A stretch of DNA of 64,000 bases, taken from contig WGND01000004.1 in assembly GCA_016124805.1 (NCBI GenBank), positions 1-64,000 of the forward strand. Reading direction: 5' to 3'. Both the position numbers and the translations under genes were made by a program. The stretch comes from Hyphomicrobiales bacterium. GTDB taxonomy: Bacteria; Pseudomonadota; Alphaproteobacteria; Parvibaculales; Parvibaculaceae. Position 1 is the first letter of the stretch, and every line of letters begins with the position of its first letter. This document shows, in pieces, positions 16,160 through 48,521 of the stretch. The notes beneath the pieces were generated by a model. It made no database searches. It saw nothing but the letters and a program-made list of their open reading frames with translations, and was not told the origin of the DNA.

Positions 16160-16229
16160 GTGATGTCTGTAGCTGCATGTAGACACGGTGCCTTTTTCAA
16201 GCGCCAGCCACGACAGAAAGACATCACCC

Positions 16230-17471
16230 GTGAGCGATCCGGCCATCATCACTGAGTACCAGAATGCCAGCGAGCGCCTGAAGCATGCCGTGCATCGGCA
16301 CAAGGCCGTCTCGAAAGAGGGACTGACAGAACGCCTGTTCACGCTGCTGTTCACCGGTCTCGTCTATCCCCAGATATGGGAAGACCCGGAAGTCGATATG
16401 GAGGCCATGCAGATCAATGAGGATAGCCACGTCGTGGCCATCGCATCCGGCGGCTGCAATGTCATGTCCTATCTCACGGCCAATCCCGCCAGAATCACAG
16501 CCGTTGATCTCAACCGGGCCCATATCGCCTTGAACAGGCTGAAACTTGCCGGTGCGGCACATATGCCAAGCTATGAGCATTTTTACAGCTTCTTCGGCAA
16601 TGCCAATGATCCGCAGAACCCTGATCGCTACCGCCGCTTCATGCGCGACTATATTGACGACGAAACATTTGAATATTGGGAGCGTTGCTCCATCTCCGGG
16701 CGCAAGCGCATCACGCTTTTTGCCCGCAATTTTTACAAGCATGGCCTGCTGGGCATTTATATCGGCCTGTCGCATCTTTTTGCGCGGCTTTATGGCGTGA
16801 CCTTCAAGGAACTTATGGCCTGCAAGACTCTTGAAGAACAGCGCGACTTCTATGAGCGCAAGATCGCGCCGCTTTTCGACAAGCGCCTGGTGAGCTGGGT
16901 CACCTCCAAGCCGGCTTCGCTCTACGGCCTTGGCATTCCGCCCTCGCAATATGAGGCGCTTGCTGGTGATCGCGAAATGCGTTTTGTGTTGCGTGAGCGC
17001 CTTGAAACGCTGATCTGCAACTTCCCGATCCGTGAAAATTATTTCGCTGCCCAGGCTTTTGCCCGCCGCTACGTCGAAGGCGGCGAAGGCGCGCTGCCAC
17101 CTTATCTCAAGCGCGAAAGCTTCGCTTCGCTTCAGGCCAATGCCAGTCGCGTGCAGGTGCTCAACAAGAATTTCACCGAGTTCCTGCGTGCCGAACCCGA
17201 TGCCAGTGCGGACCGCTATGTGCTGTTGGATGCACAGGACTGGATGACGGATGAGCAGCTGAACGACCTCTGGGACCAGATCACCCGCACAGCCAAACCC
17301 GGTGCCCGTGTCATCTTCCGCACAGCCGCCGAGCCGAGCCTGCTGCCAGGTCGCGTGCGTGACGAAACGCTTGCCCGTTGGGACTATCGTGCCGAGGAGT
17401 CACTTGCCTTCACCAAGGCCGACCGTTCATCAATTTATGGCGGCTTCCATCTTTATGTCTTGAGGGGCTGA
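16230..17471 (+). CDS. btaA: BtaA, S-adenosylmethionine:diacylglycerol 3-amino-3-carboxypropyl transferase
   Basis: About 413 residues. BtaA moves the aminocarboxypropyl group of SAM to diacylglycerol, the first step to the betaine lipid DGTS. Family-typical segments are FTGLVYPQIWEDPEVDMEAM, VVAIASGGCNVMSYL (SAM site), ITAVDLNRAHIALNRLKL, and the C-terminal DRYVLLDAQDWM. The start is either GTG 16230 with an AGAAAG upstream or GTG 16188; I prefer 16230. btaB follows after 5 bases. The membrane-associated product makes phosphorus-free lipid that can replace phospholipid when phosphate is scarce. Confidence 0.94.
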   Translation: MSDPAIITEYQNASERLKHAVHRHKAVSKEGLTERLFTLLFTGLVYPQIWEDPEVDMEAMQINEDSHVVAIASGGCNVMSYLTANPARITAVDLNRAHIALNRLKLAGAAHMPSYEHFYSFFGNANDPQNPDRYRRFMRDYIDDETFEYWERCSISGRKRITLFARNFYKHGLLGIYIGLSHLFARLYGVTFKELMACKTLEEQRDFYERKIAPLFDKRLVSWVTSKPASLYGLGIPPSQYEALAGDREMRFVLRERLETLICNFPIRENYFAAQAFARRYVEGGEGALPPYLKRESFASLQANASRVQVLNKNFTEFLRAEPDASADRYVLLDAQDWMTDEQLNDLWDQITRTAKPGARVIFRTAAEPSLLPGRVRDETLARWDYRAEESLAFTKADRSSIYGGFHLYVLRG

Positions 17472-17476
17472 ACCGC

Positions 17477-18154
17477 TTGTCCGCCAGCAACATGGAGGCC
17501 GCCCCGCATAGCGCTCTGATGGACAGCATCTATCGGAACCAGCGCCATATCTATGATCTGACGCGTCGCTACTATCTGCTCGGGCGGGACCACTTGATTG
17601 CGGAACTGTCCCCACCGGCAAAGGGCACCGTGCTCGAAATTGGCTGCGGCACGGGCCGCAATCTCATCGCAGCGCTACGCCATCACAGCGCGGCAGATTA
17701 TTTCGGCATGGATATCTCCAATGAGATGCTTGAAACGGCTGCTGCTTCTGCCGCCCGTGCGGGTGTGGCAGACCGCATCCGCTTTGCGCAGGGCGATGCC
17801 ACCTGTTTTGATCCCCAATCAGCCTTCGGTATCGAGACTTTCGACCGCGTTTTCATGTCCTATACCATTTCCATGATCCCGGTCTGGAAAGACGCGATTG
17901 CCGACGCCATGCGCCACGTCAAACCCGGCGGCTCGCTGCATCTGGTGGATTTCGGCCAGCAGGAAAGGCTTCCTGGCTGGTTCCGGGGCCTGCTTTTCAA
18001 ATGGCTTGATCTCTTCCATGTCACGCCGCGTGCCGATATGCGCGACGTGCTGGCCGCCGAAGCCGAACGGTCAGGCGCAACGCTGCAGTTCCAGTCGCTC
18101 TATCGCGGCTATGCCTGGTATGGCGTTATCACCATGCCGGGGGCCGAGGCCTAA
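17477..18154 (+). CDS. btaB: BtaB, SAM-dependent N-methyltransferase of betaine lipid synthesis
   Basis: About 225 residues from a TTG at 17477, which has GAGGGG 9 bases upstream; ATG 17492 is the alternative. It is a class I methyltransferase: motif I VLEIGCGTGRN near residues 52-62, the acidic loop YFGMDIS, and a post-motif HVKPGGSLHLVDFGQQ. BtaB adds three methyl groups to the homoserine head group made by BtaA. It is directly behind btaA, and its end overlaps the convergent CoA transferase gene by 4 bases. Confidence 0.93.
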   Translation: MSASNMEAAPHSALMDSIYRNQRHIYDLTRRYYLLGRDHLIAELSPPAKGTVLEIGCGTGRNLIAALRHHSAADYFGMDISNEMLETAAASAARAGVADRIRFAQGDATCFDPQSAFGIETFDRVFMSYTISMIPVWKDAIADAMRHVKPGGSLHLVDFGQQERLPGWFRGLLFKWLDLFHVTPRADMRDVLAAEAERSGATLQFQSLYRGYAWYGVITMPGAEA

Positions 18155-19542
18155 GCACCCGGCCAACGCAGGTCGTGCGACCCCGATGGCATCGACGGCC
18201 TTGCATAGAAGCAGGGTGTTTCTGACAGCTTGGCCGCATGTGAGACGGCAGACAGCGTGCCGAATCCGGAGGGCAGTGTCTCCAGAAAATCAGTGATGTC
18301 TTCTCGCTTGGGGTCCATGGCGGCAAAACCGTTTTCAACCCGACCCATATCCCAGAGCCAACGACCTGTCTGTGCCAGCGAAACCTCCACATGCCAGCTG
18401 CCACCCTCGGCTGCCTGGCGCAACCGTGCCATCATGGCGCTAAAGGCCATAAGGTGGCCTGAGGCGTGATCAAGTGCCTGCGCGGGCAGCTCCTTGGGGA
18501 GATGGGTGCCAGCAGCAAGTCCCTCGGCATGATTAAAACCTGTTGCCGTCTGAACAAGGGAGTCAAAGCCGCGTCGCATGGCCCACGGCCCGACACTGCC
18601 ATAGGCCGAAAGAGACACATAGATGATGCCCGGTCGAAGTTTGGCCACCTGCTCGGGCGAAAAGCCGCGGCGCGTCATGCCGCCCGGTCGATAACCCTGC
18701 ATGAAGATATCGGTATCCCGCATCAGCTCCCGCAGGGCCTCGCGGCCATCTTCCGTGTCGAGATCGGCATGTGCGGTGAGCTTGCCACGCCCGTTGTCAC
18801 GTATCAGCCAGTCAATATCCGGCAGATGAGGCGATGTGATCCGCAATACATCGGCGCCATGCGCAGCCAGTGTGCGTCCACCCACCGGCCCCGCGACAAT
18901 GCGTGTCAAATCCAGTACGCGCCAGTGCGACAGGGGGCGAGGACCCTCTGGCAGGGGGCGGGGGCACGCCTCGCCAATTTTTGTGAAGCGGATAACAGGC
19001 TGCGCGGCGATCGCCGCTGATTGCGCATGATCCATCCACTGTGCATGGGAACGATAGGCTGACACCACGCAACCGGCTTCATTCGCCGCTGTCTCAAAGG
19101 CTTCACTCTGCCACGTCAACAGGGCTGCCTGCACGGCATCGCGCGTGGTGGCGCATTTCAACAGGTCGAGGATATGGTCCCGATGATGTGGAAAATTTGT
19201 ATGCAGACGAACATGGCCATCACCTGACTGATAGAGCCCGGCAATCGGATCCCATAGTGACCCAGGTGCTTGCGCGTCGATCTGCAAATAGCGTTCGGAA
19301 CGGAATTCAGCAGCAGCATGATGCATATCGACATGAACGCGCTGGGTCTTGCCCGTTTTCATCCGCCAGGCCGTGGCAGCCGCCAGACCGGCCGCTGCAA
19401 TGGATGCCTGGGCGGCAGAACCGATCCAAAAAGAGGAGGGCAGCACAGGGTCAACGCCTGCAAGGTCCAGATGCGACAGGTCCTCCGGCGCGCCACCCGC
19501 CAGAGACCAAAGCCCGGATATGATTTCAAAGGTTGTTTTCAA
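18151..19542 (-). CDS. CaiB/BaiF family (type III) CoA transferase with a partial N-terminal repeat
   Basis: 463 residues. The usual N-terminal motif of the family (RVLDLTRIVAGPVGGRTLAAHGADVLRI) appears only at about residue 208. The segment around ALDHASGHLMAFSAMMARL carries the Asp expected to form the acyl-enzyme. The first 200 residues hold a second, catalytic-Asp-less copy of the later segment (SAAQASIAAAGLAAATAWRMKTGKTQRVHVDM). Type III enzymes move CoA between organic acids. Start is TTG 19542 with GGAGGG 5 bases upstream, in a leader hairpin. It lies after glutaryl-CoA dehydrogenase in the same direction, so glutarate or another dicarboxylate is a likely substrate. Confidence 0.88.
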   Translation of the reverse strand: MKTTFEIISGLWSLAGGAPEDLSHLDLAGVDPVLPSSFWIGSAAQASIAAAGLAAATAWRMKTGKTQRVHVDMHHAAAEFRSERYLQIDAQAPGSLWDPIAGLYQSGDGHVRLHTNFPHHRDHILDLLKCATTRDAVQAALLTWQSEAFETAANEAGCVVSAYRSHAQWMDHAQSAAIAAQPVIRFTKIGEACPRPLPEGPRPLSHWRVLDLTRIVAGPVGGRTLAAHGADVLRITSPHLPDIDWLIRDNGRGKLTAHADLDTEDGREALRELMRDTDIFMQGYRPGGMTRRGFSPEQVAKLRPGIIYVSLSAYGSVGPWAMRRGFDSLVQTATGFNHAEGLAAGTHLPKELPAQALDHASGHLMAFSAMMARLRQAAEGGSWHVEVSLAQTGRWLWDMGRVENGFAAMDPKREDITDFLETLPSGFGTLSAVSHAAKLSETPCFYARPSMPSGSHDLRWPGA

Positions 19543-19551
19543 AATGACCCT

Positions 19552-19615
19552 CCAGAAGATGCATGAGGTTCACGCATCGTCTGGAAAGAGGTCAATCTTG
19601 ATTCAGACAATCAAG
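19552..19615 (-). promoter_or_regulatory. Leader hairpins between gcdH and the CoA transferase gene
   Basis: Two inverted repeats lie in the 85-base gap: CTTGATT/AATCAAG (about 19597-19615), and an 11-base pair of arms at 19552-19562 and 19574-19584 (CCAGAcGATGC against GCATCtTCTGG on the minus strand, one mismatch). The inner end of the latter includes the GG of the Shine-Dalgarno GGAGGG of the CoA transferase, so pairing could mask its TTG start. Confidence 0.5.
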
Positions 19616-19627
19616 TCTGCGGCCACA

Positions 19628-20854
19628 TCAGGAAAACGCCTGAATGCCGGTCATCTCGCGGCCCAGGATCAGCGCATGAATGTCATGCGTCCCTTCATAG
19701 GTGTTGACCGCTTCCAGATTCATGACGTGACGAATGACGTGATACTCATCCGATACGCCATTGCCGCCATGCATGTCGCGGGCAACACGCGCAATGTCGA
19801 GAGCCTTGCCGCAATTGTTGCGCTTCATCAGCGAAATGGCGGCAGGGGCCGCCGTGTGATCGTCAAACATGCGACCGAGCTGCAAGCAGCCCTGAAGGCC
19901 GAGGGTGATTTCCGTCATCATGTCGGCAAGCTTCTTCTGAACCAGCTGGTTGGCCGCAAGCGGGCGACCGAACTGTTTGCGGTCCATCGTATAGTCGCGC
20001 GCCGCCGTCCAGCAGAATTCCGCAGCTCCCATGGCGCCCCAGGCAATGCCGTAGCGTGCGCGGTTGAGGCAGCCAAAGGGACCGGCGAGCCCGCGCACAT
20101 TGGGCAGCAGGTTTTCATCAGGCACAAACACATCCTGCAGCGATATTTCGCCGGTGATGGAGGCGCGCAGGCTGAACTTGCCTTCGATCTTGGGCGTAGT
20201 GAAACCCTTAAAACCGCGTTCCACGACAAAACCACGGATCACATCATCATCGGTCTTGGCCCAGACAACGGCGAGGTCAGCGATAGGCGCATTGGTGATC
20301 CACATTTTCGCACCATTGAGGATATAGCCGCCATCGACTTTCTTGGCGCGTGTGCGCATCGACCCCGGATCAGAGCCATGATCGGGTTCGGTCAGGCCGA
20401 AGCAGCCAACCCATTCACCCGTCGCAAGCTTTGGCAGATATTTTTCGCGCTGGGCCTCCGAGCCATAGGCATGGATCGGATGCATGACGAGCGAGGACTG
20501 CACACTCATGGCGGAACGATAGCCGCTATCAACGCGTTCGACTTCGCGTGCGGTCAGGCCGTAGCAGACATAGTTGAGGCCGGCGCAGCCATATTTTTCT
20601 GGCAGGGTCGAACCAAGCAGGCCCTGTGCGCCCATCTCGTTCATGATCTCGCGATGGAAAACTTCGTGACGATTGGCTTCCTTCACGCGTGGCATCAGCT
20701 TTTCCTGGGCATAAGCGCGGGCGGAGTCGCGCACCATACGCTCTTCCTCGGTCAGCTGGCTGTCGAGCAGCAACGGATCCTGCCAGTTGAAAGAGGCCAG
20801 CGGTGGGTTGGCCTTGGCGGGGGCGGTACCGGAAGTGGCGGCGGCTTGCGACAT
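19628..20854 (-). CDS. gcdH: Glutaryl-CoA dehydrogenase (acyl-CoA dehydrogenase family)
   Basis: 408 residues. It oxidises and decarboxylates glutaryl-CoA to crotonyl-CoA using FAD and electron-transfer flavoprotein, in lysine and aromatic-acid breakdown. The catalytic Glu is E387 in [16 protein letters not shown]. The substrate-contact [18 protein letters not shown], the signature [17 protein letters not shown] and the FAD contact [11 protein letters not shown] are all glutaryl-CoA dehydrogenase-like. A LysR gene lies just upstream in the same direction and a CoA transferase downstream, a sensible glutarate-activation pair. Confidence 0.94.
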
Positions 20855-20919
20855 GATCGGTCCTCTCAGAAATCAATTTGAGCATGATATAGCATCGGAA
20901 CCGTGCAGAGGCGAATAGC

Positions 20920-21810
20920 TCAGGGTTCCTTGACGTAAAGGGAAAGCGCTTCCGCCAGAAAATCGAACATCAGGCGCATTCGGCGGCTGGTTTTCAGGTC
21001 TTCATGCATGGCCACCCATACATCCAGATCGACGCCGAGCTCACCTTCCAGCAGGGGCGTGAGGCCATCCCGCCTGCCGAGCGTGCGCTGGCAGAAGCCC
21101 AGACCAAATCCGGCCCTGAGGGCGGCATATTGCGCCGCATCGCTGTCGGTGCGATAGGCGAAGAGATCACGGTTCAGCTCAATGCCAAAATTTTCCAGGC
21201 GCCGGATCGAGGGGACGCGGTCAAAGCCGATCAGAGGATGCGCCATAACCTCCTCAATTGTCTTTGGCGCGCCGTATTTTTTCAGATAGTCGGGATGGGC
21301 ATGCAATCCCAGTTTCACCACGCCAACCTTGCGCGCCACCAGAGCCGACTGGGTCGGGCGGATCATGCGAATGGCGATATCTGCCTCACGCCGCAGCAGG
21401 TCTTCGGTGCGATTGGAAATCAGGACTTCGATCCTGATGCGCGGATGGAGCTCTCGAAATTCGGCCAATAGGGCGGGCAGAACTTCAACGCCGACCATTT
21501 CACTGGCGGTAATCCGCACCGTGCCGCTGTCATCCTCCGCCTCGCCCGTGGCAGCACGCTGCAGCGCCTCGGCAGCGCTCGCCATAGCCTCGGCAAACGG
21601 CATCAGCCCCAAGGCACCCTCGGTCGCGATGAGTCCGGTCTGGGAGCGGGTAAAGAGCGTCACCCCCAAAGCCTCTTCCAGCGCATCGATATGCCTGCCG
21701 ATGGTCGGCTGGGTCAGGGCTAGGCTACGGGCAGCCGCAGAAAGACTGCCTTCCCGCATGACGGCAAGGAAGGAGCGGTAAAGTTCCCATCCGGGTTGCA
21801 TATAGCTCAT
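20920..21810 (-). CDS. LysR family transcriptional regulator
   Basis: 296 residues. The N-terminal winged HTH reads FLAVMREGSLSAAARSLALTQPTIGRHIDALEEALG. The effector domain (from about 90) begins GTVRITASEMVGVEVLPALLAEF. It lies 65 bases upstream of gcdH, in the same direction, and is divergent from an epimerase-like gene. It could regulate either. A perfect palindrome at 21845-21864 lies in the divergent gap. Effector unknown. Confidence 0.93.
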   Translation of the reverse strand: MSYMQPGWELYRSFLAVMREGSLSAAARSLALTQPTIGRHIDALEEALGVTLFTRSQTGLIATEGALGLMPFAEAMASAAEALQRAATGEAEDDSGTVRITASEMVGVEVLPALLAEFRELHPRIRIEVLISNRTEDLLRREADIAIRMIRPTQSALVARKVGVVKLGLHAHPDYLKKYGAPKTIEEVMAHPLIGFDRVPSIRRLENFGIELNRDLFAYRTDSDAAQYAALRAGFGLGFCQRTLGRRDGLTPLLEGELGVDLDVWVAMHEDLKTSRRMRLMFDFLAEALSLYVKEP

Positions 21811-43358: not shown

Positions 43359-44615
43359 TCAGTCGTGAGGGCCCTCCGGCACATGCCGGGGGGCTTCCAT
43401 GCGCCAGAGCGGCGTGAAGAAAAAGATCGACAGCCACAGCACCACCATCAGTCCGCAGGGCAGCAGCACCGCATCAAGCGGTCCAAGCCAGTGAATGGCA
43501 TAGCCGGTGAGAAAGGACCCGATGGGTCCGCCGCCCATGGTGCCGAGTGTGAAACCCGCCAGCATCCGCGCCCGCATGGCATCCGTCGCTGTTTCCTGCA
43601 CGATGGAACGCGAGATTGTCATGGCGATGCCGCCGCCCAGACCCCAAACCGCGGCCAGCAGGCACAGCGCCCAGATGGGCGGCTGAAGATGAATCAGCAG
43701 CATCACGGAGACGCTGATGCCTGAGGTCATCATGATCGTGCGGCCCTGATGCCGGATGGCCCGAAACCGGCTGACGGCAAAAGACGAAATGCCGATCCCG
43801 GTGAAGAAACTCATCAGCAACAGGCCGATTTGAAATGAGTCGCCTTGATAGATGTCGCGAATGAGGATCGGGAAAAGCACCATGAAGACGCCCATGAAGA
43901 GGACGCCGCCAAAAAACTGGAAAATCAGCACGGGCCGGATGCGATCACTCTCCCATATGGCCAGCAGTCCGGCCTTCACATCCCGCAAGGGCGACCGGCG
44001 CACATCGGCCACATGTATCGGCGGGGCCGGATCGAGACGCGAGGTTGTGAAGGCAGCAAAGGCGAGCAGGGCGCTTTGCGCCACCAGCAGCAAATGCGCG
44101 CCGAAATATTCCGCCGTGCCACCCAGCATGAAACCGCCGACCTGACCGAGAAACTGGCCGGCCATGGCGAGTGCCACCGCTTTCTGGATATTGCCCCCCT
44201 GGCGCATCATCGCGACGCGTGAAAGCAGGCTGTCGCGGGCCGGCATGACGAAGCCTCCCAACGACGACATCATGATCGCATAGGCCAGAATGAAGCTGTA
44301 ACTCAGATTATCCGTGAGAATGACGATGGCCAGCATAAGCGGTGGCAGAACCGAAAGCAGCTGCAGACGCATCAGATGGTGGCGCAGTTCGGCGCGGTCA
44401 GCCGCCGCGCCGCCGAAAAGACCCAGCAGCAGCATCGGCAGCATGGAGAGCATCTGGGCAATGCCAAGCTGGTCCGAGGTGACATGCAGTTCAAAGGTCA
44501 GCAGTGACGGCAGCAGCACGGATTGAATGCCGGCCGATATGAAATAGGACCAGAGGCCCCGCATGTACCAGGCCAGCTTTTCAGGCGGCGCAGTGACGGG
44601 CGAAGGATCAGCCAT
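43359..44615 (-). CDS. MFS transporter (EntS-like), downstream copy of a tandem pair
   Basis: 418 residues from ATG 44615, two bases after the stop of the upstream paralog. Twelve or so membrane segments are visible; VMPARDSLLSRVAMMRQGGNIQKAVALAMAGQFLGQ and the loop GLFGGAAADRAELRHHLMRLQ fit the DHA3/EntS exporter type. The frame extends to 45050 through antisense sequence of the upstream gene, which I reject. It is probably co-transcribed with its paralog and could act with it. Confidence 0.9.
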   Translation of the reverse strand: MADPSPVTAPPEKLAWYMRGLWSYFISAGIQSVLLPSLLTFELHVTSDQLGIAQMLSMLPMLLLGLFGGAAADRAELRHHLMRLQLLSVLPPLMLAIVILTDNLSYSFILAYAIMMSSLGGFVMPARDSLLSRVAMMRQGGNIQKAVALAMAGQFLGQVGGFMLGGTAEYFGAHLLLVAQSALLAFAAFTTSRLDPAPPIHVADVRRSPLRDVKAGLLAIWESDRIRPVLIFQFFGGVLFMGVFMVLFPILIRDIYQGDSFQIGLLLMSFFTGIGISSFAVSRFRAIRHQGRTIMMTSGISVSVMLLIHLQPPIWALCLLAAVWGLGGGIAMTISRSIVQETATDAMRARMLAGFTLGTMGGGPIGSFLTGYAIHWLGPLDAVLLPCGLMVVLWLSIFFFTPLWRMEAPRHVPEGPHD

Positions 44616-44617
44616 CG

Positions 44618-45859
44618 TCAAGCGGCCTTTTCGTGATAGGCCCAGATCGGTGAAAACATCCGCAGGCTGATCAGAATGATGAGCATCAGCACGGTTGGCA
44701 CCCATAAGGCATGATAGATGCCGAGCTGGCCGACCAGCAGACCCATCATCAAGGCGCCGACGGGTGCCCCGCCGGAAAACCCGAGCTGATAGAGCGCAAG
44801 GACGCGGGCGCGATGCGTTTCGGGTGCCGCGATCTGAACAATCGTGCGGCCCATCGTCATGGTCGTGCCCGCGCCCAGACCCCAGACAAAGCAATAGAGG
44901 CACAGCACAACAAAAGGAATGGGGAAGGACATCAGAAACAGGATGATCAGGCCGCTTGTGAGCGAGCCCATCATCACGCGCCCGCGATGGTGGATATGGC
45001 CGACACGGATCAGCGCCATATTGGAAACAATGGTCCCACCCCAGAAGCAAATATTGATCAAGCTCAGTTCCCAGACGCTGCCGCCAAAAATATCGCGCGC
45101 CATGAGCGGCAGGATGACGAGGAAGCTGCCCACGTAAAAGAGACCCACAGCGAACATCATGCCGATCACCGTGAAGACCACAGGTGAGGCGCGCGCGATG
45201 GCGATGCCGTCGAGAATTTGTTTCAGGCGCGAATCCTTTGTCGCCAGATTGGTCGGCGGCAGGGGTGCGAGCTTCCAGGAAGCGTAGCCACCGCCCAGCA
45301 TCACGATCATCTGCACAATCAGCAGCGCGGGGGTGCCGGTGGTCGCGGCGAGTGCGGCCACAAGCATGCCCACGAGCTGGCTGCCCATTTGTGTTCCCAT
45401 CGCCATGGCAACGGTCTTCTGGATGTTGTTGCCTGCCACACGGGTAAGGGCGGAGTCGCGTGCCGGCATGGCGAAGGCGCCCAGCGTGCCCATCGCGAGA
45501 GCATAGATGATGAGCGCTGAATAGCTGAGGTCGCCGAAGATGAAGACGATGGCGAGCAGCAGGGGCGGAATGGCCGCCAGTATGTGGACGCGGATGAGAA
45601 TGCGCCGGACATCGGACTGATCGGCCGTTGCCCCGCCCAGCAGCATGAAGAGCAGCGAGGGCACCATGAGCGACATTTGGGCAATCCCGACCTTGGCCGC
45701 GGATTCTTCCAGAACATTGGCGACGAGATAGGGGAAGAGAACGAATTGAATGCCAAGGCTGACAAACCAGCTGGCCTGGCCGCCCAGATAAAGCGTCAGC
45801 CGCTTCCGAAGGGCGGCATTCTCAATATCCGGCAGGATCACATCTTCGACAGCGCTCAC
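44618..45859 (-). CDS. MFS transporter (EntS-like), upstream copy of a tandem pair
   Basis: 413 residues with about twelve hydrophobic segments. The motifs MLLGGATADQSDVRRILIRVH, AMPARDSALTRVAGNNIQKTVAMAMGTQMGSQLVGM and CFVWGLGAGTTMTMGRTIVQ align segment by segment with the downstream gene, so the two arose by duplication. The gene ends 2 bases before its paralog. A near-palindromic site lies 57 bases above the start. Confidence 0.9.
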   Translation of the reverse strand: MSAVEDVILPDIENAALRKRLTLYLGGQASWFVSLGIQFVLFPYLVANVLEESAAKVGIAQMSLMVPSLLFMLLGGATADQSDVRRILIRVHILAAIPPLLLAIVFIFGDLSYSALIIYALAMGTLGAFAMPARDSALTRVAGNNIQKTVAMAMGTQMGSQLVGMLVAALAATTGTPALLIVQMIVMLGGGYASWKLAPLPPTNLATKDSRLKQILDGIAIARASPVVFTVIGMMFAVGLFYVGSFLVILPLMARDIFGGSVWELSLINICFWGGTIVSNMALIRVGHIHHRGRVMMGSLTSGLIILFLMSFPIPFVVLCLYCFVWGLGAGTTMTMGRTIVQIAAPETHRARVLALYQLGFSGGAPVGALMMGLLVGQLGIYHALWVPTVLMLIILISLRMFSPIWAYHEKAA

Positions 45860-46008: not shown

Positions 46009-47238
46009 CTAGCGAGGGGTGTCGCCCGTGTAGCGGGCCCGGGGGCGGATCATCAATCCGGTCCTATATTGTTCCATGGCATGGCCGATCCATCCAGCGG
46101 TCCGTCCGAGGACAAAAATGCTGAGCCCGGAGCCCCGCGGCATGCGCAGAACGGCACCCATCACACCCAGCGCAAAATCAATATTGGGTCGCAGGCCGCC
46201 AGCCTCGGCCATGACATTGGCGATGCGCTGGGTACGTTTGAACGCTGGGTCATCGCCGTAATATTTGGCAAGCATCTCCATAAGCGCAGGCGCGCGTGGA
46301 TCGCCGTCGGGATAGAGCGGATGGCCAAATCCGGGCACGGGATCATTGTCGCGCAGGCGCGCCAGCACGCCGTCTTCCACATCCTGCCGGTTCGCCATTT
46401 CCATCAGAAAGCCCTCCACCCGATGGGAAAGCCCGCCATGGCGCGGCCCCTGCGCCGCGCACATGCCCGCTTCCACGGCTGCATAAAGGGTGGCGCCGGT
46501 GCCCGCGACACAGCGCACCGTAAAGGCGGAGGCATTGAGCTCATGGTCGGCACATAGAACCAGCGCCATGCGGATGAGATTGGCCGCACCGGCATCACCA
46601 AAGGTCAGCGCCTTGGCAAGCACGTCATGAGCGGGCGCCTCGCTGGGGCTGACGCCAGAAAGGGTGGCCGTGACAAAACGGAGGAGACGGGCGCCTGTCG
46701 TGGCAAGGCCTCTGTCCGTCATGTTGTAAACAGTGTTGTCTTCCAGTGCCGCCACGGGCAGCAGGGCTTGCGCACGGGCAAGCGCCGTGAGGCTTGCCAC
46801 CGACTCCGTGATGGCGTCCAGCCTTGCGCTGGAACGGGGCAGCGCCTCGCTTGTGAAGGGCTGGGCATCGCGACATCCCCAGAGCAGGGCTGCCACCTGC
46901 TCAAGTGTGGAGGTGCGGGCAAGTGCTGCTGAATCGGCACCCCGATAGTAGAGCTTGCCGTCGGCAATGAGTGTGATGGCGGAATCAAGGACCGGCTGGC
47001 CAAAGGACAGCGTGCCTGCGCGGCCATCGGTTGCGGGGGCATCAGCGGTTGCGCCTGTCCTGCGTGTCTTGAGATTGCGTACATCCTCGGCCCGATAGCG
47101 CTTGGCGCGCGAATCCGGCACAGGCTCGGAGCGGATCATGTCGCGGCTCACATAGGCGTAAAGAGTCGCGAGGCTGACCCCCAGTTCCGCGGCGGCTTCC
47201 TTGGCCGATAAATAGAGATTTTCCATCTTTTCCGCCAT
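46009..47238 (-). CDS. Citrate-synthase-family protein with an N-terminal helix-turn-helix
   Basis: 409 residues. Residues 6-55 form a MerR/excisionase-like HTH (YLSAKEAAAELGVSLATLYAYVSRDMIRSEPVPDSRAKRYRAEDV). The rest is a citrate synthase domain: DHELNASAFTVR and GPRHGGLSHRVE (first and second His regions), PGFGHPLYPDGDPRA (third), and NIDFALGV with the catalytic Asp. Thus the catalytic residues are kept while a DNA-binding domain is added. It may sense acyl-CoA or oxaloacetate and control the divergent citrate synthase. The gap between them contains a perfect palindrome. Confidence 0.93.
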   Translation of the reverse strand: MAEKMENLYLSAKEAAAELGVSLATLYAYVSRDMIRSEPVPDSRAKRYRAEDVRNLKTRRTGATADAPATDGRAGTLSFGQPVLDSAITLIADGKLYYRGADSAALARTSTLEQVAALLWGCRDAQPFTSEALPRSSARLDAITESVASLTALARAQALLPVAALEDNTVYNMTDRGLATTGARLLRFVTATLSGVSPSEAPAHDVLAKALTFGDAGAANLIRMALVLCADHELNASAFTVRCVAGTGATLYAAVEAGMCAAQGPRHGGLSHRVEGFLMEMANRQDVEDGVLARLRDNDPVPGFGHPLYPDGDPRAPALMEMLAKYYGDDPAFKRTQRIANVMAEAGGLRPNIDFALGVMGAVLRMPRGSGLSIFVLGRTAGWIGHAMEQYRTGLMIRPRARYTGDTPR

Positions 47239-47268
47239 TTTCCGGAGCTTGCTTCACAATTATATATA

Positions 47269-47285
47269 TTGATTATCTTAATCAA
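47269..47285. promoter_or_regulatory. Palindrome between the two citrate-synthase-like genes
   Basis: TTGATTA-TCT-TAATCAA, a perfect 7-base inverted repeat in an AT-rich stretch between divergent starts at 47238 and 47391. It is the natural operator candidate for the HTH-citrate synthase. Confidence 0.75.
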
Positions 47286-47390
47286 GATTGACCAGTTATC
47301 AGTCTAGCACCAGCTTCACTTCAACGCCAGGTCGAGCCCGCCTTCAACATGGCGGCGATCCGGCCCGTGATGAGTGAAAGGAGAAGTGCC

Positions 47391-48521
47391 ATGACGGATA
47401 TGCGTATGGTTCGAAAAGAGGCGGAAGCCACGTCCTCGGGTCTCGACAAGATTGTCGCCGCCGAAACACGGCTCAGCGATGTGGATGGTGAAGCAGGCCG
47501 TCTGGTCATTGCCGGTTTTGACGTAGCCGACCTCGTCACAGCACATGACTTTGAGGAAACGACTGCGCTCCTCTGGAAGGCAGCCGGCCTGCCGGATGCA
47601 GATAGGACCGATATGAAGGCTGCCATGGGCGCAGCGCGCGTCGAGGCATTCGCGCTGGCGCCTCGCCTGCCGGCCTCCGTTGACGGCCTCACCATGACAG
47701 AAGGCCTGCGAACGGGCCTCTCCCTGATTTCCGATGAAGGCACACGGCCCGTGCAGCAGCGCCTTGTGGGTGCCATGCCGGTCTTTGTGGCTGCGCTTGC
47801 CCGACGCGCCAAGGGTCAGGCGGCCATCGCCCCCGATCCGGCACTGGGGCAGGCGGCTGATTTCCTTCGCATGCTGAGGGGTGAACCCGCAACGGCAGCC
47901 GAGATCGAAGCCCTGGATGCCTATATGGTCACCGTGACGGATCACGGCATGAATGCATCGACCTTCACCGCGCGCGTCATCGCTTCAACGCGGGCCGGCA
48001 TGGTCTCTGCGGTTGTGGGTGCGCTTTGTGCACTCAAGGGCCCGCTGCATGGCGGTGCGCCGGGGCCCGTGCTCGACATGCTCGATGCCATCGGCACGCG
48101 AGAGAATATTGAACCCTGGCTCAAGGCCGAAATTGCCAAAGGCGAGCGCCTCATGGGCTTTGGCCATCGCGTCTATCGCGTGCGCGATCCGCGTGCCGAT
48201 GTGTTCAACAAGGCGGTGATGACCCTGACCAACGGGAATGAGCGCCTGCAGTTTGCCCGTGAGGTGGAGGCCGCTGCGCTTACCGCCCTGCGTGCGTCCA
48301 AGCCCGGCACCCGCATTGATACCAACATGGAATATTACACGGCGCTATTGCTGGAGGCGCTGAACATTCCCAATGAGGCCATCACCCCTGTCTTTGCCAT
48401 GGCGCGCGTGGCGGGATGGACGGCGCATGTCATGGAACAGGAGCGGGTCGGCCGGATCATCCGCCCGCAGTCTGTCTATGTCGGGCCGTTCCCGCATGAC
48501 AAGGACTCGGCAGCTGCCTGA
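47391..48521 (+). CDS. Citrate synthase/2-methylcitrate synthase-like protein
   Basis: 376 residues from ATG 47391 (GAAAGGAGAAG upstream). Motifs: DHGMNASTFTAR, GPLHGGAPGPVLDM and GFGHRVYRVRDPRADVF carry the substrate histidines and arginine. Where the catalytic Asp is expected (NVDFYS in canonical enzymes) the sequence reads NMEYYTA, a Glu. This Asp-to-Glu change occurs in some citrate-synthase-like proteins. It would condense an acyl-CoA with oxaloacetate; exact acyl group unknown. Divergent from the HTH-citrate synthase gene, and probably controlled by it. Confidence 0.92.
   Translation: MTDMRMVRKEAEATSSGLDKIVAAETRLSDVDGEAGRLVIAGFDVADLVTAHDFEETTALLWKAAGLPDADRTDMKAAMGAARVEAFALAPRLPASVDGLTMTEGLRTGLSLISDEGTRPVQQRLVGAMPVFVAALARRAKGQAAIAPDPALGQAADFLRMLRGEPATAAEIEALDAYMVTVTDHGMNASTFTARVIASTRAGMVSAVVGALCALKGPLHGGAPGPVLDMLDAIGTRENIEPWLKAEIAKGERLMGFGHRVYRVRDPRADVFNKAVMTLTNGNERLQFAREVEAAALTALRASKPGTRIDTNMEYYTALLLEALNIPNEAITPVFAMARVAGWTAHVMEQERVGRIIRPQSVYVGPFPHDKDSAAA

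Follow-up and report, generated by a model that had tools for sequence, protein, structure and literature searches.

The DNA analysed here is a stretch of 64,000 nucleotides (the window) from a Hyphomicrobiales bacterium of the family Parvibaculaceae (contig WGND01000004.1, positions 1 to 64,000). In it, two citrate-synthase-like genes lie divergently on either side of a short palindrome. One encodes a fusion of a helix-turn-helix head with a citrate synthase (HTH-CS), and the other, referred to below as the partner, encodes a CitA-type citrate synthase. An earlier note on this DNA had described such a divergent pair with the repeat TTGATTA-TCT-TAATCAA between the two starts. We confirmed the coordinates and domains of both genes, and the repeat was found exactly at 47269-47285 (Table 1). 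Citrate synthase commits acetyl-coenzyme A (acetyl-CoA) to the tricarboxylic acid cycle. As set out below, HTH-CS very probably acts as a metabolic sensor by which both the neighbouring gene and its own are switched on or off.

Table 1 Features of the HTH-CS locus and of the second operator (positions in the window).
Feature	Position	Strand	Evidence or remark
HTH-CS, 409 aa, proposed transcription factor	46009..47238	-	Open reading frame, domain search, AlphaFold2 model, residue census, tree
MerR/HTH_17-like winged helix-turn-helix, N-terminal (residues 9-58)	47065..47214	-	Pfam HTH_17/MerR_1, below cut-off here; AlphaFold2 model
Citrate synthase domain (residues 80-400) with catalytic His, His, Asp	46039..47001	-	PF00285, residue census, Foldseek
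Possible HTH-CS -10 (TATAAT) beside the operator	47259..47264	-	Candidate read by eye; generic scan silent
Operator palindrome TTGATTA-TCT-TAATCAA (TTGATTATCTTAATCAA)	47269..47285	.	Exact match and conservation
Extended operator TCAATNTTGATN7ATCAA; the TCAAT block holds the partner's putative -35 on the opposite strand	47269..47291	-	Conservation
Putative partner -35 (TTGACC), 2 bp from the palindrome	47288..47293	+	Conserved TTGA[CT], 17-bp spacer; missed by generic scan
Putative weak partner -10 (CAGCTT), spacer 17	47311..47316	+	A2/T6 conservation
Partner, CitA-type citrate synthase (PRK12350 subfamily), Glu replacing the catalytic Asp	47391..48521	+	Open reading frame, NCBIfam, alignment
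Family III CoA-transferase gene, partner side of the second operator	18151..19542	-	PF02515, E 2.7e-49
Second extended operator (TCAATCTTGATTCAGACAATCAA)	19592..19614	+	Sole other exact copy in the window's genome

We analyzed the domains and the predicted fold of HTH-CS. The Pfam domain Citrate_synt (PF00285) matched residues 80-400 with an E-value of 2e-63 and 215 bits against a cut-off of 27. An AlphaFold2 (AF2) model with a mean predicted local distance difference test score of 84 placed a citrate synthase fold after a low-confidence linker at residues 62-83. Foldseek matched PrpC enzymes and citrate synthases, the top solved matches being PrpC enzymes (template modelling (TM) score 0.68, root-mean-square deviation 8). 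At the N-terminus, HTH_17 matched residues 9-54 (E 2.5e-4) and MerR_1 was also detected (E 2e-3), both below the Pfam cut-off. Two homologues, one from Caulobacter and one from Paraburkholderia, had HTH_17 scores above the cut-off, and among the aligned members HTH_17, taken up again here, was found at E<=0.01 in 13 of 13 and MerR_1 in 10 of 13. In the AF2 model, the head consists of helices at 12-19 and 23-31, wing strands at 37-39 and 46-49, and a further helix at 50-61.

The active site was surveyed in 159 HTH-CS rows, which were chosen by helix-turn-helix motif and length after removal of duplicate loci; they include many close relatives and are nearly all proteobacterial. Four loci were dropped from this set, namely L087 and L120 (the motif differs), L171 (contig end), and L201 (a broken Caulobacter copy). 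Using residue numbers and roles that we take to be those of E. coli citrate synthase, we found the catalytic residues His264, His305, and Asp362 in 157, 154, and 156 rows, respectively, His229 in 156, and Arg314, Arg387, and Arg407 in 159, 157, and 158. In the window's HTH-CS, the catalytic triad and the other checked ligands are kept, while the oxaloacetate-site His226 (E. coli GltA) is replaced by Cys. The earlier statement that all catalytic residues are kept and joined to a MerR-like head was right for the triad but not for His226, and the head of the window's protein resembles HTH_17/MerR_1 at scores below the cut-off. In a tree of 72 rows, which were picked by group so that the tree tests clustering and not every possible relative, the 53 HTH-CS rows grouped into a single clade on a long stem (1.53). 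Because the domain has diverged far yet kept its active site, it is expected to at least bind its own substrates. The protein had also been described as an enzyme turned regulator. The fusion is indeed tied to its neighbour through the repeat, but the implied loss of catalysis finds no support in active-site residues that are nearly invariant (154-157 of 159 for the triad).

The partner scored 413.9 bits against the NCBIfam model PRK12350 (cut-off 332) and 325 bits against PF00285 (cut-off 27). Its frame extends back to an ATG at 47349, and 47391, with AGGAG directly 5', is the better start. The alignment showed Glu at the position of the catalytic Asp, as previously noticed. However, this is not an oddity of the partner, since Glu was present in 107 of 110 partner-type frames (three were unread) and in the aligned chains of its closest solved relatives, 2c6x from B. 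subtilis and 8gmf, which is listed with M. tuberculosis CitA chains. We rejected the possibility that Glu makes the partner a dead enzyme, because it marks a subfamily with working members, among them Caulobacter citB, which works as a citrate synthase in E. coli (PMC7083601). HTH-CS and the partner share 31% identity and fall into separate clades, and recent duplication was rejected as the origin of the pair. Judged by identity and tree, the two are old, separate subfamilies. The window's genome contains one further citrate synthase gene, located elsewhere.

Within the genus and family, 34 of the 36 genomes examined besides the window's carried HTH-CS; the two genomes without it (G021 and G034) are 88% and 70% complete. 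HTH-CS and the partner were divergent in all 36 non-duplicate loci compared. The search was expanded to 387 alphaproteobacterial genomes, drawn evenly and containing six genomes of the window's own family. HTH-CS was identified in 48 of them (E<=1e-50), a CitA-type gene in 39 (E<=1e-100), and both in 35, and the two genes were adjacent and divergent in 35 out of 35 cases. Co-occurrence was strong (one-sided Fisher p 2e-34, kinship ignored), and the four CitA-type genes without HTH-CS scored 358-380 bits, compared with at least 465 for the rest. Beyond Alphaproteobacteria, HTH-CS was observed in Beta- and Gammaproteobacteria and in metagenome-assembled genomes (MAGs) of other phyla.

A search for the palindrome in the window alone, allowing up to 3 mismatches, gave 2 matches against 0.97 expected, which is not significant. 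The window alone is thus insufficient to exclude a chance origin, which is rejected by conservation across genomes; the palindrome carries weight because it is conserved across relatives, not because of window statistics. Near the HTH-CS start, TTGAT-N7-ATCAA (10 fixed bases) was exact in 131 of 159 loci and present with at most one mismatch in 142. In control windows of 160 nt from the same loci, the corresponding counts were 1 and 64 out of 9,460. Exact matches with other spacers beside HTH-CS (n=159) numbered 0 for spacer 5, 4 for spacer 6, 3 for spacer 8, and 0 for spacer 9. Both the pair and the repeat are therefore conserved, which answers the co-conservation check that the earlier note had proposed and is the opposite of the refuting outcome it had named for them.

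The 14-base palindrome was exact in 31 of 36 loci, comprising the window, its genus, its family, and one locus from another family. TTGATTANNNTAATCAA was found in 28 of 36 genomes, with one copy in 27 and two in one, and the reversed control gave 0. The second exact copy in that relative lies at L051 (G015:C106:34856-34872). We then aligned 80 dissimilar sites; these cluster representatives, and the 89 used for promoter spacing below, were drawn from sites with at most one mismatch. The alignment revealed a further TCAAT block immediately before the core (TCAATnTTGATnnnnnnnATCAA), which may be a third contact or just the partner's -35. Of 39 genomes, 35 had the extended site: 33 carried a single copy, and the window's genome and one from Paraburkholderia carried two each; in the four genomes lacking it, the HTH-CS sites deviate. 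Judged from their coordinates, 32 of these 33 single copies adjoined the HTH-CS gene (G614 lay outside this check). A large regulon is unsupported, as exact sites were almost always single per genome. In Paraburkholderia bryophila, two extended sites are located away from HTH-CS (L241 2760 and L242 2732), one some 55 bp upstream of a gene for a D-2-hydroxyacid dehydrogenase and the other near a beta-lactamase-family gene.

The genes facing HTH-CS varied among lineages. At the best 80 of at least 556 loci, a non-random set, the partner was CitA-type in 55, a family III CoA-transferase in 16, and prpB in 8, and none was found in 1. The CoA-transferase loci came from 15 Burkholderiales and Telmatospirillum, and the prpB loci, where prpC follows prpB, from 7 Xanthomonadales and one MAG labelled Eremiobacteraeota. 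PrpB was 64-71% and, in the seven prp loci reported, PrpC 70-78% identical to the E. coli proteins; in the eighth (L116), prpC runs past the contig end. Accordingly, the proposal that HTH-CS is tied to its paralog stands for the conserved divergent CitA-type pairing, but elsewhere prpB-prpC or CoA-transferases take this place.

To this we add Caulobacter. A CtrA query against 249 genomes of one family matched 37 at 96-100%, all from one genus and six at 100%, and this genus was taken as Caulobacter on the strength of the CtrA match. In 12 of the 37 genomes, which were searched further, a GltA-type gene, a CitA-type gene, and HTH-CS were present in every case, the last two divergent. gtcaatcTTGATCAATATAATCAA was located before HTH-CS in all 12, and the palindrome was exact in all. 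C. crescentus has CitA, CitB, and CitC, and the main text of PMC7083601 (eLife 2020) reports that CitB complements an E. coli gltA deletion while CitC does not; there, citC (CCNA_03758) is treated as a putative citrate synthase gene and citB is CCNA_03757. By elimination, CitC would be HTH-CS and CitB the partner, in genomes recognised by CtrA and not from the NA1000 record. Identities to B. subtilis citrate synthase were 39-40% for CitB and 30% for CitC here (2c6x), in rough agreement with the 37% and 32% given in PMC7083601 (CitA). That main text contains no words starting with 'helix' or 'HTH', nor the term '2-methylcitrate'. In one Caulobacter genome (G623, C1:130222-132501), HTH-CS is split into two frames and a stop lies inside the partner frame, as if the two genes were decaying together.

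We next considered the promoters. On the partner strand, a TTGA[CT] starts 2 bp past the palindrome and falls within a near-invariant block (77-80 of 80 sites at positions -6 to -2). In 55 of the 89 cluster representatives, a hexamer with A2 and T6 followed after precisely 17 bp, whereas spacers of 13-16 and 18-22 gave 0-9 of 89. Divided by partner type, the spacer-17 hexamer was present in 12 of 15 of the CoA-transferase group, 5 of 5 of the prp group, and 38 of 69 of the rest. If this predicted promoter is right, the palindrome is centred at about -46 of the partner. On the other side, the distance from the end of the operator to the HTH-CS start is 1-10 nt in many species and 5 nt in Caulobacter.

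On this evidence, it is highly likely that HTH-CS is an autoregulated one-component transcription factor that senses acyl-CoA or oxaloacetate and shares its operator with the divergent partner; its DNA binding, direction of control, ligand, and possible turnover are all predicted here from sequences and models. The complete citrate-synthase domain would serve as the sensor, and the protein would bind TTGAT-N7-ATCAA between itself and the partner, a single site controlling both genes. HTH-CS would also be likely to repress its own gene, since in many species a few bases separate the site from the HTH-CS start. For the partner, we slightly favour activation over repression, because the site abuts the putative -35, a usual place for an activator, and the putative -10 is weak. 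Given active-site residues that hardly vary and the presence of a gene for acyl-CoA metabolism at every partner locus, the most likely signal would be oxaloacetate combined with an acyl-CoA, either acetyl-CoA or propionyl-CoA, or else the product, (methyl)citrate. If true, gene control would be coupled directly to the oxaloacetate/acyl-CoA state by a regulator built from citrate synthase. This would offer a reason why Caulobacter citC does not serve as citrate synthase in E. coli and why citB lies next to citC. The Caulobacter pair would also be a ready test system, in which a model organism provides a single operator with two divergent promoters.

A broader idea, which we hold only tentatively, is that these proteins form a class of regulators in which an intact, perhaps still catalytic, citrate synthase reads the oxaloacetate and acyl-CoA state, with one operator kept while the target genes are exchanged. 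The operator would differ little among Alpha-, Beta-, and Gammaproteobacteria, MAGs of other phyla having TTGAT-N6-ATCAA, in which the arms are one base closer, and the targets would be CitA, PrpBC, and CoA-transferase.

Two variants of the sensor reading differ in how the switch would work. HTH-CS could act purely by repression, on its own gene as well as on the partner gene, the bound protein masking both its own promoter and the -35 of the partner until a ligand releases it. This is a serious possibility that we nevertheless judge somewhat improbable. The position of the partner's -35 inside the near-invariant block and the closeness of the site to the HTH-CS start are in its favour, and a single site between divergent genes is a common repressor layout; the location of the palindrome upstream of the partner's -35, however, is more usual for activators, and the putative -10 is weak. 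Alternatively, HTH-CS could be a trigger enzyme, that is, a working (methyl)citrate synthase that also binds DNA and whose turnover state sets expression. Retention of the catalytic His, His, and Asp together with His229, Arg314, Arg387, and Arg407 in 154-159 of 159 rows despite the long stem would agree with this, as would PrpC enzymes being the best solved fold matches. We nonetheless regard it as unlikely, considering that Caulobacter citC, which is HTH-CS by elimination, fails to complement the E. coli gltA deletion (PMC7083601, main text).

Several observations weigh against the favoured reading. The head of the window's HTH-CS scores under the Pfam cut-off, and a search of solved structures by sequence gave no match for the N-terminal part. 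A generic promoter scan of 47100-47450 called no sigma-70 promoter, so the call of the partner promoter rests on conservation. The spacer-7 site, within one mismatch, is missing at 17 of 159 HTH-CS loci. Among the 48 alphaproteobacterial HTH-CS matches, the 13 lacking a CitA-type gene comprise 2 that face a CoA-transferase, 1 that faces a different citrate synthase, and 10 with no partner of the types sought; the last two groups speak against the reading. One of these 10 loci is cut by a contig end (L171), 7 have the operator (at most one mismatch), and two (L173 and L181) show nothing operator-like at HTH-CS. Ten MAG loci labelled Chloroflexota, Acidobacteriota, Actinomycetota, Myxococcota, and Eremiobacteraeota, for which the phylum is the label only, had the exact spacer-7 site in 2 cases, TTGAT-N6-ATCAA in 6, and neither in 2. 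The six with TTGAT-N6-ATCAA (L081, L087, L095, L100, L112, and L120) are MAGs labelled Chloroflexota, Acidobacteriota, and Myxococcota. At the second operator of the window, the conserved -10 is lacking, as judged by eye, and among CoA-transferase genes located away from HTH-CS in 39 genomes, the site was found at 1 of 5, the window's alone. The weak Pfam score and the unmatched N-terminal part would suit an ordinary citrate synthase whose helix-turn-helix serves protein contacts, the repeat being an unrelated element such as the site of another regulator. We consider this very improbable, because one and the same site accompanies HTH-CS in three classes of Proteobacteria and with three types of partner, and nearly all scanned genomes have the site only there, whereas the site of a foreign regulator would be expected elsewhere too.

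The second operator lies about 50 bases before the start of the CoA-transferase gene. In Burkholderiales, the divergent partner of HTH-CS comes from the family of this CoA-transferase, which is 37% identical to the partner from Herbaspirillum. In the search of 39 genomes, the window's was the sole one of the Parvibaculaceae to contain it at E<=1e-60. The idea that CoA-transferase genes are a second target in general was rejected, as four of the five genes distant from HTH-CS lack the site. Upstream of this gene, 19628-21810 (-) holds an acyl-CoA dehydrogenase gene, presumably for a glutaryl-CoA dehydrogenase, and a LysR regulator. At 16188-18154 (+), a DUF3419 protein is followed by an S-adenosylmethionine-dependent methyltransferase, which we take to be a BtaA-BtaB betaine-lipid pair. 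Downstream of HTH-CS, on the same strand, are two tandem major facilitator superfamily transporter genes (43359-45859, -).

Among the titles and abstracts listed from open-licence literature, a scope that leaves subscription papers mostly outside, we found no description of a helix-turn-helix citrate synthase regulator. A 2012 comparative genomics study of malonate and propionate catabolism in J. Bacteriol. reportedly presents novel regulators, and the prp-linked branch could be among its subjects. In E. coli, prpR is divergent from prpB, as HTH-CS is in the seven Xanthomonadales and one MAG. PrpR is a sigma-54 dependent regulator of the Fis type, and thus a different kind of regulator that is not a citrate-synthase fusion like HTH-CS.

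By the AF2 model and by Pfam matches that stay below the cut-off in the window's protein, the N-terminus of HTH-CS may be of the winged helix-turn-helix type seen in the MerR family, including its BldC-like members (abstract of PMC5859096; excerpts of PMC5045206). The remainder of the protein is a citrate synthase, unlike MerR regulators. In these, a coiled-coil dimerisation helix follows the helix-turn-helix, as stated in the BldC abstract (PMC5859096), whereas in the AF2 model of HTH-CS the helix-turn-helix part leads into a low-confidence linker and then the citrate synthase. The promoter layout also differs. Classical MerR operators lie inside a long -35/-10 spacer (excerpts of PMC5045206), while the 17-bp repeat of HTH-CS is upstream of the partner's -35 and outside its putative 17-bp spacer; a classical MerR layout was therefore rejected. 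The joining of an enzyme-derived sensor to a helix-turn-helix is a known kind of regulator, for which BzdR is an example (abstract of PMC3602430). Like HTH-CS as predicted here from its sequence, BzdR has an N-terminal DNA-binding domain and an enzyme-derived domain, in this case a shikimate kinase that binds the effector benzoyl-CoA; its enzyme fold is different, however, and its activity is lost, whereas HTH-CS keeps its catalytic residues.

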